DNA of 64,000 nt, taken from NCBI RefSeq assembly GCF_000165425.1, contig NW_001799422.1:187206-251205 (forward strand), read 5' to 3'. Position 1 is the first letter of the stretch. Each line of letters starts with the position of its first letter. Position numbers and translations under genes: made by a program. Source of the DNA: Paramecium tetraurelia. Its lineage: Eukaryota > Ciliophora > Oligohymenophorea > Peniculida > Parameciidae. The notes beneath the pieces are model-generated. The model searched no databases and was not told the DNA's origin. It was given only the letters and a program-made list of their open reading frames with translations. This document shows positions 48,486 to 59,754 of this stretch, piece by piece.

Positions 48486-50539
48486 ATGGATGATGAGGGA
48501 TTCGAATCTGCTTTTATTGAAACCTTAATAACTTAATAAGATAAGTAACCTACATTCATATTCACTTCCCTTCCCACTCCCAATCCCATCGTGTACTAAT
48601 CAGACTATCGAGGAGTGCCAAACGACATAAAAGATATCGAAAAAACATATAAATGTGTTTATAAGAAATAATATGGATCAAAAGTGAGTAATCGACATTT
48701 TAAATAATTAAATCTCAATGACTTACAAACGCCTACAATCACTCAAACTCAACAGATGCCCCTATTTGATTCCAATTTCGCCTGTGGAAATCTGGCTGCA
48801 GTTCATTAAGTCGATACATTTGAATATGATTTACTTCTCCAAGAAGACATCAACACTACCAGCTATTCTCAATGGTTTTACTTCCGAGTAACCAATCCCA
48901 ACGACTATAAATATAGAATAAACATCATTAATTTGGTAACTTATATATATTAAAACAACAGAGCAAGAATTATTTACAGTACCAAAATGGTTTCGGAGTC
49001 TATATTAAATGCGATTCTCATTGGGAAATACTGAAATCCCAAGTATTGATCAAACAATCCTAATATGTCAAATCCAATTTCTGTTATACCACTTCTACTA
49101 AGTTATATACGCTATCCTTCTGGATAAAAAAGTCATCAAAGACCTTTGAGATAGCTCTTGGCATCCCTTACACTCACCTTGATTTGGATAGATACTTGCT
49201 CAGGTTTTAATCAGAAATCCTAACGAATACTATTTCTGGATTGCCTGTAAGAATGGTGTAATTTGGATCTAAAAGAAGTGATGTTATTTTAGTAATTGCA
49301 CGTTAGCATCCTGGAGAGACTGTTTCTTCTCATGTTTGTTAAGGCTTTCTTGACGCACTTTCAAATGACAAAACACTCCAACTATTTTATAATATTATCG
49401 TTATTCCCATGGTTAATCCAGATGGCGTCAAATGGGGTAACTTTAGATGCGATTTAAGTGGGAAAGATTTGAATAGAGTCTGGTAAAACCCTAGATCTAG
49501 ATTTCATTAATAAATTATTCACATCAGAAATCTCATCTAGAAAATATTGGATGAAGGCAGAGATATCAAAACATTTATTGATTTGCATGGTCATTCTAGA
49601 AAACTTGGTACTTTTATGTATGCATGCAGAAACACTGATGATCCTATCGAATGTCGAGTTCTCCCCATGATCATGGCTGAAAATTCTCGATATTTCGATT
49701 TCAATTCATGTACCTTTAATTTGAAATCCTACAAACTGAAAACTGCAAGAGCTTTTGTTTATAATTAAATGTAAAAGCATAATCCTAACAGTTTTCATAA
49801 TATTGTTACTCTTGAAACATCTTTTTTTGGTTATAAATCAGACAACAAATTTATCTAATATTCTTAATCTGATTTAACACAGATTGGAAAGGATTTGCAT
49901 CAATCTTTAAAAGTTTACTATATGTAATTGGATTAAAAAACCAAGATATTGAAAGAACTTGAATTAAAGAAATAGTATTATCAATAACTAGATGAGAATT
50001 AAGCCTCAGATGATAGTGACTCAGAGGCAGAAATAGGAATAGTTCAAGATGAAGAGGTTCCACCATAAACAATATTTGCTAACAAATCCGTCAGATTGCT
50101 TCAAGATACGCCTAAGACTAGTTTGTTGAAAAAGAGAAATTTAAAAAAAGCCGTCGATCCATTTTTGGTTGGGTAATGTGAAAAGAAATACAACTTTCAC
50201 AAATTGACTAGACGGGAAAGCAAATCTTAAAAGACCATAAATCAAACTCTTTCTATTTAATAAGCTTAATCCCCAAGTCTAAAAAATTTAAACAAAATCA
50301 GCAGAAACCTATCATCGCATAATAAAGATCATATTCATATGCATTCAAGCAATGTTGATCAAAATGAAAATATTTAATCGTTTAGGATATAACGATAAAA
50401 CACAACAAGAACACCCAAAGAGTTCAAACTGAAATCTGAATAAAGAGTGCAATTTCATAGTCCCAATGATAAACTCATAGTTTTCGAATCAAATTTGAAA
50501 ATAAAAAGAAAGAATACCTAAAATATCAAATTATTTTGA
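48486..50539 (+). CDS. Cytosolic carboxypeptidase (M14, CCP/AGBL-like)
   Basis: 675 residues with one 26-nt intron (48936-48961). The N-domain contains [11 protein letters not shown], typical of CCPs. In the peptidase domain HPGE (about residue 266) and DLHGHS (about 355) give the zinc ligands, [11 protein letters not shown] and DLNRVW bind the substrate, and TLETSFFG (about 433) carries the catalytic Glu. CCPs remove glutamates from tubulin tails, a modification abundant in cilia. The last 200 residues are Ser/Asp/Gln-rich and basic, probably regulatory. Confidence 0.94.
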
Positions 50540-50648: not shown

Positions 50649-52400
50649 ATGGATTCAAATTCTCCGATATCTGTATTCTTCTATAATAATCATTAGGCAA
50701 GTGTCATTTCCTATAGAAATGATCCAAATGATGATACTATCTACTATATGGTGCAAGTAAAAAATAAAACAAGTGATATTTGGTAATTAGAAAAAAGGTA
50801 AAACATTTAATCTAAACTAGATTTTCATAATTTGAAGACTTAGCCAAAAAATTAAAAGTTCTCTTTGGTGAACAATTGCCTACACTTCCAAAAAAGAAAT
50901 ATATTACATTTTTAGTAGGTAAAACGCCTGAAGATATTGAAAAAAGAAAGGTAGGTTTAGATGAATTCATTCAAGTAAGAATACTATTGATAAAATGAGA
51001 ATTTAGCAAGCAGACCAGAAGTAGTTGCATCAGAACCGTTAAAGTAATTCTTAGAAATAGAAAAAAATGCAAAGGACATCATAGTGAGTCCTCCAAAACA
51101 GATATTCGAGTTCAAAGGATTCTTGCATGGAATAAGAGATTTCACAATCAGTTCAGAATAAGGATTGATGTTTGTCATCACATCAGATTGCTCAGTAATC
51201 AATAGATTGGATGCCTATCTCACAAACATGAAAGCTCCATGGGAATCTGAAAAGGGAGATCAAGCACTTATACCAGTAGGATGCGTCGAATGTTGGTTAT
51301 AATAAGAGAGTGGAGAATTTTAAAGATTATGGGTTAAGATGTACAATTCTTAAGCCATTACCTGTTATTGGGATCCAGTAGCTTCTGTATTGCTTGTGGG
51401 ATTAGATAGCGGATCAATTAATTATTTGTATGTACCAGAGAAGGAAGGGTTTAAGAAATTCACTGAGAGTATGGAAATTGAGTAACATACAGACAGAGTA
51501 ATGGGATTGTATTATGATAATAAAAGGAAGTATTTGCATTCCATCTCCAAAGATAGAAAATATAGAGTATTGAATCTTAGAAAAGGGGATTTAGTAGCAG
51601 GTTATATTCAATGCTAATTATATTTTAGATATCGAGCCTGATCAATATGAATTGACATGTCTTTTAGGGAGCGAAGAGAGAAAAAAGACTTTTGTAGGAG
51701 ATAGACATGGAGAAATATTTATTTATGATATTGAGAAAGTATATATTGATATCAATATATTTAGAAACGACCTAAATTGGTTATTAAAATCCCAACCAAT
51801 CAATTGTTTATTAGAGGATTTTTCATAGATAATCAAAGGAATTACCTATTTTCAATTAGTCATGAAAATGGAGTCATTTTAATTATAGATATATAATTAC
51901 CTGGAAGAGAATAATATTCTAAAGAAGTGGCTTCATTGAATGGGAAGTCAAAAAGCAGAGAAATAGGATGGTCATCAAAAAGAGGTGAAATCTATGTTGG
52001 CAATATTGATGGCACTGTTACCATCTGGGATGCTCGAAAATCACAATAATTATGTAATATCGTTAATGATTATTTAGATGTACTTAAAGCTCATGATTCT
52101 GATATTACAAAATTGCAATGGCTAGATGCTGATTAAACTCTTTTGACAGCTGCTAAGGACAAAGTTATCAAGGTTTGGTCTATGCCTTAGCATTGGAGAG
52201 ATCCGAAAATTGTAGAAAAAGAATTAGAATAGGATTAATAATAAGCTAAACAATAAAATGTTGAACAATTCTAAAAGAAAGCATAAAAACAATTTGAACA
52301 AAATTTCTAGGATGATGATGAAGATGATATGGCCGTTTGGCATAAAGATTAAAAAAGGCATTCAGACACTAAGTATGAAGATATTGTAGAATTAAAATGA
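50649..52400 (+). CDS. PX domain - WD40 repeat protein
   Basis: 549 residues; introns 50798-50820, 50975-50999, 51601-51628 and 51739-51764 leave 550 codons. Residues about 5-110 form a PX domain: YYMVQVKNKTSDIW, the RFSQFEDLAKKL box, LPKKKY and RKVGLDEFIQNL. This suggests phosphoinositide binding on endosomes. WD repeats follow (LLVGLDSGSINYL, KTFVGDRHGEIFIYDIE, GEIYVGNIDGTVTIWDAR, TLLTAAKDKVIKVW). The C terminus is Gln-rich and acidic. It resembles the WDFY proteins in layout, but with PX at the N terminus and no FYVE seen. Confidence 0.88.
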
Positions 52401-53157
52401 GTATTATTTAAGTTTATTGCTCTCCATATAATATACATAAATTCTAATTTAACTATTTATTCCATTGAGAATAAAGATAACATTCCTATCTTTTATATTA
52501 TTATTAATTTTTTTTTATATTTAACTGAGTCTCCAATGAAAAAACTTAAAGATCTTAAATTTATAATCGAATCTCTATATCTTAAATATTTTAGATTGAT
52601 TATATAGTTATGCTTTATATGGTTATATTGTCAAAATAGTATCTTTCTTTTGCTATTAAATTGTATTTAAAGGCTTATTCATTATTTTTGTTTGGCAATT
52701 TGATTCACCTTAGAATTTAATGCCAAATTTGTTGATCATATAATTGCATTATTCAAATATAATAATTGAAAAATAAATGATTATTAAATTAAACAACTTT
52801 TTAGTATGGTTTTCATTTACTAACTTGACTTAATTCAGTATTTTATCTATATAACTTAACTTTTTTATTGATAAATATAAAGAAAAGAAACTAGACATTT
52901 TAATTATTTATCTTATAATTTTAAACAGTTGGATTATATTTTAATTTTTTAATAATTAATACTTTGATAATGCTATAAATTTTGTAAACATCATTTAAAG
53001 TGGCTATAACATATTTATTAGCAAATAATTTTATTTATTTGAATTTAAGTGTGTTGAATAAATTGATTTATGATTTTCATAAGATGTAATCAAAATTGAT
53101 TGAAATGACACTATATTATTGGATTAACAATTATTATAATATTAATAATTAATAATA
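52401..53157. other. Intergenic, no gene seen
   Basis: 757 bp of extremely AT-rich DNA between two plus-strand genes, the longest gene-free spacer in the window together with the region around 33000. Many TGA in all frames. No RNA signature or repeat found. Confidence 0.55.
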
Positions 53158-55210
53158 ATGCTGTTAAAAAAAAAAAGAGAATTCGAAAATCAGAAAGGGA
53201 AGGAGAATATTTTAGTTTAAAGCTCGTCTAATAAAAAGGGAGAATTTTAAGTAAAGCAAAAACTTCTGTTACCAAAAGTTCTACTTTATAAATTATTCCT
53301 TTTTTTAACTCCAAAAGAGATTAATAAAGTTATCAGAACACTCAACCATCAATATTTGTAATTAATAAGTCAACAATTCTGGAATGTAAGATTTTAATTG
53401 AGATTTTAGTATTATAACAGATACAATCCTTTGTAATTCGACGACCTATATTAAAAGTTCAAATTTCTCTAAGAAAGAAGATCGAAAGGCAAATTATATC
53501 AAGTCTGTAATAGATTGACTGGTTAACAATTTGTGCTTCGAGAACTTGACACAATTAAGGCAAACGCAAATCATAATGATGGAGTGTAGACATCAGTTCT
53601 AAGAGAGATTTCGTATCTGAAATCATTAAAATCTCATCTTAACATAGCTTCAATTGTTTAGGTTAAAATCACCAATCATATTGTATCAATCTTATATGAA
53701 TATTACCCTTTGAATTTAAGAGATTAATTGAAATAGACAGAGTTATCAATTGAATAGATTAAGTCTCTATTTTTGCAAATATGTTAAGGTGTTGAATATT
53801 TACATTAGAACCATATATTACATCGGAATTTGAAACCGGATAATATTTTCATAAATAATAAAGTAGTTAAAATTTCAGATTTTGGGATGTCTAGATTAGA
53901 AACCTATCCCATAATTCCATATACACCAGAGGATCCAAAAGAGAGAGAAAGATCGAATAGAGAGGTCAAAAGATTGTGGTATAGAGCTCCAGAAATGCTA
54001 TTTAGAAAATAGTATTACAGTTGTGAAATTGATAGTTGGTCATTGGGATGTATTTTAGCAGAATTGGCGTTAAGGAGTCCATTATTTGGTGGCAAAACAG
54101 AAATCGAATATTTGTTTGAGGTGTTTCAATTTTTGGGATCACCTGATGAAAATGACTGGAATTCCATATCAAGTGATGTTAAAATTAAATTCCCTTAGTG
54201 GAGAAAGTATAGTTTATAGATTAATGAACTAAAGAAAAATGAAATAATAGACATAGTTTAGAATAGAAAGTAGATCTACGAAAAATTGATAACTCTTAAT
54301 AAAATTTTAGGTAATGATGGTATTGATTTATTATAAAAACTATTATGTATTAAACCAGAAACCCGATTAGATATCATTGAGATTGTGTAGCATCCTTTTT
54401 TAAATGCTTTTAGTCAAAATACATAGATGTATTATATAGAACCGAAGTTCAAGGAGTATTTGGAATTCCAAACAGAAATCAATCAAACTATGCGGAGTAC
54501 TTTAATTGATTGGTTGATTGATGTCTGCATCCATTTTGAATTGATGGATGAGACATTGCATCTGTCAATCATTTACATTGATTTAGTTCTATCAACAATG
54601 AAAATTAACAGGAAGGATTTATAATTGATTGGAGTTACTTCATTAAAATTAGCTGAGTAATATATTTCATTAAATCTATAGTGTTTATAATGAAAGGTCT
54701 AAGGAATATTTCAAATAAGAGAATTGTAATGCTTATGCTTATATTACTGCAGATGAATACAATGAAAAACAAATAATTGATATGGAATAGCAAATTCTCT
54801 CAATTTTAGATTATAACTTAACTTACAGAACTCCAATTTAATTCTTAAAAATTATAAATTCAAAATTGAAAGTTTCAAATGACTCATAAATGTTATCTTA
54901 CTTTTTCTGTGACTTTTTTATTATGGGATATGAATAATTAATTATTGAAAGATAACTATATGCAATTTGTTGCTTATTGTTGGCTTTGAATATTAAGAAT
55001 GAAAAGATAAATTCATCTTAGCAATTTCAATTTACTGAAAAAGATGTAATAGAAGCTTTTGATAGATTTTACAATGTGTGGTAATTTATTAAGTTATAAC
55101 CACAAATTAACTCGCTAGAAGCTTGTATGCAGAGACATAAACATTTGAATCCAAGAGACATATAGTTAAACATCCCACCTTCAGAGTTTATAACTTAATT
55201 TTTAGGATGA
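53158..55210 (+). CDS. CDK-like (pseudo)kinase - cyclin fusion protein
   Basis: 667 residues; two introns (53386-53409 and 54657-54681) leave 668 codons with no stop between the halves. An N-terminal basic extension of about 75 residues precedes a CDK-like kinase domain: GVQTSVLREISYLKSL at the PSTAIRE helix, HRNLKPDNIF, SDFGMSRL, LWYRAPEML, SWSLGCILAEL. Catalytic Asp of HRD is Asn, the beta-3 Lys position reads VLRE and the Gly loop is unrecognisable. From about residue 405 a cyclin box follows: MRSTLIDWLIDV, ETLHLSIIYIDLVLS, QLIGVTSLKLA, AYITADEY, MEQQILSILDYNLTYRTPIQF. Inference: a permanently linked CDK-cyclin with a catalytically impaired kinase half. Confidence 0.93.
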
Positions 55211-56660: not shown

Positions 56661-56773
56661 ATGTACTACTTAAGTTTAATACAAAGCACGTAATTTTATC
56701 AAGAGTGTAATATTTGAAAATATATTATTTGTAATTATAAATTTGTAAAAATATTTGATTATTAAGCACCCTC

Positions 56774-57630
56774 ATGATAAAAATCAAAAAAAATAAAGAT
56801 TTCATAGGGACACTTAGAAATATCCTAGAAGTATTTTTATTTTAATCAAGAATGAAGAGTATTAAGGGATAATTTAATTGCTGAAAGAGAAAAATGGGTT
56901 TAAAATTTTGGATCTAGAATAATTTAAATCTGGTATTTTAGTTAAGCATTTCACACATAATAATTATTCAAGTTTTAGAAGGTATGCCATATTTTAATCA
57001 TCTAGATAACTTAATTTATATGGGTTTTAATCTCATAAATCTAATAAAAATGAAATCCTTTATATAAATGAATCATTCAATTTTGAAAGGGATAAAAAAT
57101 TGAAGAAATAGCGTAAAGCAGAACTATATGCTGAAAATATTGAATTAGAGCAGAAAAGATAATTGAATTAACTCTTATAACTTTAATAAAATTAGAAACA
57201 AATGATGGAATAAATCTAGACAATAATAACCACTTAAAAAGAATTAAAAGAAAAAATGAAATCTCAGTTATCTGTATATATTAAAATAGATTAGAATTAT
57301 GTATAAAAAAGGTTCATGTCAGATCAAAGAGATAGATTCCTTTTCCTCGCTTTGTCATTATATACTAACATAGAAGATAAAAATTTTAGTACAATTTTAA
57401 ATTTATTAGAATAATATATTGATGACTTAATATAAGAGGTCAATTATTTTCCCTTTTTTAATTAATTGAAACACTAATTAATTAAGAACACAAAAACACT
57501 TTTTTCTATTATAAACTTCTATTTTAATAGAGAATCCTTTGATTCTAAATCTATTGATAATTCATATAATGAATAGGATTTAGAAGATAAATTAAGTTTA
57601 AGTAATATAAGTAATTACTTCGATTTTTGA
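56774..57630 (+). CDS. HSF-type DNA-binding protein
   Basis: 270 residues; introns 56831-56850 (20 nt) and 56982-57005 (24 nt) leave 271 codons. The DNA-binding domain reads FIGTLRNILENEEY, GFKILDLEQFKSGILVKHF, THNNYSSFRRQLNLYGF, matching the heat-shock factor helix-turn-helix with its recognition helix SSFxRQLNxYGF. A helical, Gln-rich segment (IELEQKRQLNQLLQLQQNQ) could be the HR-A/B trimerisation coil. The second half is otherwise unassigned. The domain sits right at the N terminus, without the usual extension. Confidence 0.9.

Positions 57631-58221: not shown

Positions 58222-59754
<1,533 letters not shown>

Follow-up and report, generated by a model that had tools for sequence, protein, structure and literature searches.

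A CDK-like kinase with replaced catalytic residues, fused to a cyclin in a single gene of Paramecium tetraurelia

A gene of Paramecium tetraurelia joins a CDK-like kinase and a cyclin in a single polypeptide, and this arrangement is almost certainly a genuine fusion. Catalytic residues of the kinase are replaced, a second copy of the gene has decayed, and the two copies bear the mark of purifying selection across every part of the protein. The overall best explanation is that the gene encodes a catalytically degenerate CDK, tied covalently to an A/B-type cyclin and acting by docking, a reading to which we give an even chance; that a docking scaffold or decoy is its main role is a proposal we hold at slightly below even confidence. 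The window analyzed here, a 64,000-nucleotide stretch (C180:187206-251205; GC 29 per cent), belongs to a genome of 69 Mb in 231 contigs, which was scanned. Ciliate code 6, an intron of 25 nt and recent paralogous blocks are all in keeping with Paramecium. The gene and its domains are laid out as follows:

53158..55210, plus strand: whole fusion gene, two exons, ciliate code 6, 675 aa plus TGA stop (gene model, Pfam, paralog alignment)
53485..54402, plus strand: CDK-like kinase domain, residues 110-415 (Pfam; CDK2 the best PDB relative)
54448..54823, plus strand: Cyclin_N box, residues 431-547, split by the intron (Pfam; cyclin A2 the best PDB relative)
54657..54681, plus strand: 25-nt intron GTAATATATTTCATTAAATCTATAG (GTA...TAG) within the cyclin box (gene model; aligned intron-like stretch in the paralog; predicted splicing)
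54830..55036, plus strand: divergent Cyclin_C-like region, residues 550-618 (Pfam, below the curated cut-off, 18.8 vs 22 bits)

Under code 6, in which TAA and TAG are read as Q, the frame of the kinase starts to be open at 53119 and meets a TGA at 54693, and the spliced coding sequence comprises 2028 nt, or 675 codons and a TGA. With the standard code, by contrast, the region between 50000 and 58500 has no complete open reading frame of at least 80 aa listed. We infer removal of the intron from its sequence, the cyclin homology that splicing restores, and the aligned stretch in the paralog. Pfam detects Pkinase with an E value of 5.1e-46 and Cyclin_N with 9.2e-30, and these matches, as scored, are not due to chance; the 15 residues between the two contain neither a stop nor an intron. 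The original prediction of a CDK-like domain and a cyclin box within one gene at these positions is borne out by the gene model, Pfam, and the paralog. Its uninterrupted frame of 668 codons holds at the junction, but the protein has 675 codons, code 6 is required to read it, and an intron lies inside the cyclin box.

The gene has the following neighbors:

48872..50536, plus strand: zinc carboxypeptidase M14
51777..52397, plus strand: WD40-repeat protein
56743..57627, plus strand: HSF-type DNA-binding protein

A further protein kinase part is found at 58320..58751 of the window (plus strand), with HRD intact and a Pfam Pkinase match of E 1.2e-27 on 144 aa.

The history of the fusion can be read from its paralog:

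C190:225698-227725, minus strand: second fusion copy (locus L039), decayed, with the same order of N-terminus, kinase and cyclin

The two genes are identical at 1819 of 2157 aligned bases, and their flanks are colinear in three blocks of 84 to 90 per cent identity, which fits a duplicated block. Within its coding region the C190 copy carries seven indel runs (two insertions and five deletions relative to the window) and three TGA codons, and one of the deletions takes WYRAP out of the activation segment; this copy is a pseudogene. It stays in frame across the kinase-cyclin junction, so the fusion predates the duplication, as do the Arg and Asn replacements at the catalytic positions described below, since both also occur in the paralog. 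The copies differ 69, 44 and 207 times at codon positions 1, 2 and 3 (659 of 675 codons comparable). Counted by the Nei-Gojobori method and averaged over both copies since duplication, dN is 0.075, dS 0.897 and dN/dS 0.084 (656 codons, the three TGA codons omitted). The ratio is low in all parts, namely the N-terminus (0.109, 99 codons), kinase (0.072, 305), Cyclin_N (0.057, 120), and Cyclin_C (0.117, 128), so selection preserved the entire fused protein. These counts require that constraint acted on each copy for most of the period after duplication, and as strongly on the kinase part as on the cyclin. The decay of the C190 copy is recent, because dN/dS is low despite the indels and TGA codons. 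Since one of the two copies has decayed, a double dose of the gene is dispensable, which counts against the docking explanation.

The kinase domain was compared with CDK2, whose residue numbering we take as the reference:

53539..53541, plus strand: Arg128, replacing the ATP-binding Lys (CDK2 Lys33; CDK2 alignment, paralog also Arg)
53587..53607, plus strand: QTSVLRE, the PSTAIRE-helix equivalent, residues 144-150 (CDK2 alignment; paralog comparison)
53821..53829, plus strand: HRN replacing HRD (catalytic Asp to Asn), residues 222-224 (CDK2 alignment; paralog HQN)
53878..53886, plus strand: DFG, intact, residues 241-243 (CDK2 alignment; paralog comparison)

In this alignment CDK2 Asp127 corresponds to Asn224, and glycines 11 and 13 of the glycine loop are replaced by Gln105 and Arg108, leaving glycine 16 alone. 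The ATP-binding Lys and catalytic Asp of an active CDK are therefore both replaced, with the Asp of DFG present; APE, the Asn in the catalytic loop and the PSTAIRE-like helix Glu are likewise present. The counterpart of CDK2 Thr160 is ambiguous, as HMMER aligns Thr256, followed by an 11-residue insertion, whereas an ungapped count back from WYRAPE arrives at Asn267. HRD is present in all 24 other kinase loci examined in the same genome, a set that leaves out six further listed loci, each a fragment of one or other fusion copy. Phosphorylation is unlikely given the changes Lys33 to Arg and Asp127 to Asn and the loss of two loop glycines, and the fusion kinase is very probably not an active one. 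The fold may still bind nucleotide, since DFG, the catalytic-loop Asn and the helix Glu are intact. The catalytic changes speak against the constitutive kinase unit envisaged in the original prediction; the scaffolding role envisaged alongside it may hold.

One feature of the cyclin part bears on docking:

54490..54513, plus strand: MRSTLIDW, residues 445-452, corresponding to the hydrophobic docking patch of cyclin A (Met210, Leu214, Trp217; alignment)

Among PDB sequences, its nearest solved relatives are cyclin A2, then B1, and it combines a Cyclin_N fold with an MRxxLxDW helix. Of the cyclin A positions that we take to form the hydrophobic docking patch, Met210, Leu214, Trp217 and Gln254 are conserved and Glu220 is replaced by Asp. 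Within the cyclin A2 pair Lys266/Glu295, which presumably contacts the CDK, Glu295 is matched by Glu535 and Lys266 is replaced by Val501. The latter replacement disfavors a standard cyclin-CDK interface, and retention of most of the substrate-docking patch favors a non-catalytic docking or decoy function. In such a mechanism, the kinase fold, no longer phosphorylating, would hold the cyclin in cis in a CDK-cyclin-like complex; the cyclin's hydrophobic patch would bind RxL-type partners of cell-cycle kinases; and the fusion protein would compete with active CDK-cyclin complexes, recruit partners to them, or sequester those that dock on the patch. A dead CDK kept fused to a cyclin under strong selection would imply that a CDK-cyclin pair can earn its keep purely as a platform for binding. 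The function of the fusion is testable, because Paramecium offers gene silencing by feeding.

Several other explanations bear weighing against non-catalytic docking. An assembly or reading error joining two adjacent genes, which the original prediction had raised against itself, was looked for and nothing was found in its favor. The C190 copy shares the in-frame order over the junction, at 84 per cent nucleotide identity and within a colinear block, so that an assembly join is very unlikely; with relatives reported as RT-PCR-confirmed in P. infestans (PMC3019232), we regard this explanation as negligible. The indel runs and TGA codons of the C190 copy might instead suggest a gene heading for loss, whose window copy is intact and no longer important. 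This is very unlikely, as the frame of the window copy is intact and the dN/dS of 0.084 averages the two copies across all the time since they duplicated. An active kinase, turned on in cis by its own cyclin, would draw on the retained DFG, APE and PSTAIRE-like helix Glu, and on Thr256 as an alignable counterpart of Thr160 despite the insertion that follows it. It is highly improbable in light of the replaced Lys33 and Asp127 and the two lost glycines, each of these changes kept in the paralog where aligned, and of Asn267 at the Thr160 position in the ungapped count.

The remaining alternatives turn on the N-terminus:

53200..53208, plus strand: KEN triplet, residues 15-17, possible APC/C degron (motif, both copies)
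53239..53484, plus strand: N-terminal helical region, residues 28-109, without a known domain (sequence, profile and structure searches)

KEN, which we take to be a motif of APC/C degrons, lies in a K-G-K-E-N stretch in which the copies differ at synonymous sites only; shuffling the first 100 residues 5000 times also produced a KEN in 277 cases. The triplet hints that the fusion protein may be degraded by the APC/C, and thereby sits uneasily with the independence from cyclin turnover that had been claimed. On this basis the cyclin could set the lifetime of the pseudokinase through cell-cycle-timed degradation, and a passage of PMC3019232 likewise proposes the cyclin domain as a possible regulator of stability. 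The frequency of KEN among the shuffles weakens this case, as does the fact that selection is strongest in Cyclin_N, beyond the needs of a mere degron carrier; we consider it rather unlikely. Alternatively, the protein could comprise an F-box, a pseudo-CDK and a cyclin, and, like cyclin F, receive substrates for an SCF ubiquitin ligase. The stretch LPKVLLYKLFLFLTPKEINKVIRTL... is F-box-like by eye, and its local alignment to two F-box sequences of the same genome gave scores that 86 and 102 of 2000 shuffles equalled or exceeded, a borderline result and the sole comparison that did not go against an F-box. Skp1 (two matches) and cullins (16 matches) were recovered in genome scans; the machinery exists, nothing more. 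Within this genome residues 1-105 match only the two fusion copies; searches of Pfam, NCBIfam and PDB sequences gave no match to them (0 in the PDB), and the match of the paralog's N-terminal fragment to CDC4_D (E 0.13) is at chance level. An N-terminal F-box is not supported by any Pfam F-box match, and the fusion gene is absent from the genome-scan matches to PF12937 and PF00646 (3 of 8 matches scored in one scan and 14 of 16 in the other). A single-sequence AlphaFold model of the N-terminus, of modest quality (pLDDT 73.9, pTM 0.38), returned 0 matches in Foldseek against the PDB, and profile comparison with the F-box gave P 0.094 and a probability of 0.6 per cent. An SCF receptor is thus improbable, and its specific form, in which the N-terminal 105 residues form a divergent F-box and the in-cis pair of dead CDK and cyclin presents RxL partners of cell-cycle kinases for ubiquitination, is very doubtful; if true, the ancient Asp-to-Asn fusion family would be a chromalveolate counterpart of cyclin F.

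The genome was surveyed for further fusions. An exon-wise search gave at least 113 Cyclin_N matches, first-look candidates in which exons are counted apart. Compared by eye, none of the 57 other listed kinase places falls within 5 kb of a listed cyclin match (among at least 67 listed places, with four cyclin-only matches, the window gene and the C190 copy set aside). When the 6-kb surroundings of each of the 20 best cyclin matches were searched by tblastn with the fusion's kinase domain, three of the 20 contained kinase-like sequence, always on the strand opposite to the cyclin. In a genome-contig collection, one bacterial kinase matched residues 151-303 at 33 per cent; phages gave 12 weak matches to the kinase part, and viral contigs no match to the fusion protein; these outcomes are uninformative about relatives. 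A single-sequence AlphaFold model of residues 1-499 had a mean pLDDT of 33.6 and was discarded.

The original prediction knew of no described natural CDK-cyclin fusion of this layout. Such fusions have in fact been described in oomycetes, ciliates and Theileria, in passages of PMC3019232 (2010) and PMC3143110 (2011). The former reports that four CDKs of P. infestans end in a cyclin domain, an arrangement confirmed by RT-PCR, and that all four may be inactive through an Asp-to-Asn substitution in subdomain VIb. It lists related genes, each with the identical substitution, in P. ramorum, P. sojae, H. arabidopsidis, 'P. aurelia', T. thermophila and Theileria annulata, and gives them as absent from P. 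falciparum, T. gondii and two diatoms; by this account the family seems spread across ciliates, oomycetes and Theileria. Excerpts of PMC2705460 and PMC3239843 carry no description of the fusion, and the full-text literature searched yielded no functional study of the family. Set side by side by description, the window gene and this family share a CDK-like domain followed by Cyclin_N and Cyclin_C in one protein (Cyclin_C below the cut-off here) and the subdomain VIb Asn (HRN here). By layout and Asn, as far as these passages describe them, the gene fits the family, and CDK-cyclin fusion is already known. PSTAIRE is retained in one P. infestans member, whereas the window protein has QTSVLRE; the Lys-to-Arg change, the glycine loss and the N-terminal extension seen here go without mention in the PMC3019232 passages. 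The second paper identifies Tetrahymena CYC13 (GenBank EAR91121) as a cyclin-CDK fusion and credits the first such fusion to Eufolliculina uhligi (Markmann-Mulisch et al. 1999). Compared by description only, CYC13 likewise joins a cyclin to a CDK in a ciliate, and 35 per cent of its sequence, at the N-terminus, is without known similarity; the window protein is similarly extended. The details new to the window gene are the Lys-to-Arg change, the glycine loss, the retained docking patch, the selection, and the decaying second copy.

Among better-known systems, CDK2-cyclin A2 provides the closest solved structures to the kinase domain and the cyclin box, respectively. Its partners are separate proteins with an active kinase, whereas those of the window protein are fused and the catalytic residues replaced. 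To our knowledge, cyclin F has no kinase domain; it does possess an F-box, unlike the window protein, in which none was found. The two resemble each other (9cb3 match, E 1.3e-9) in a cyclin box whose retained docking patch may be the working part.
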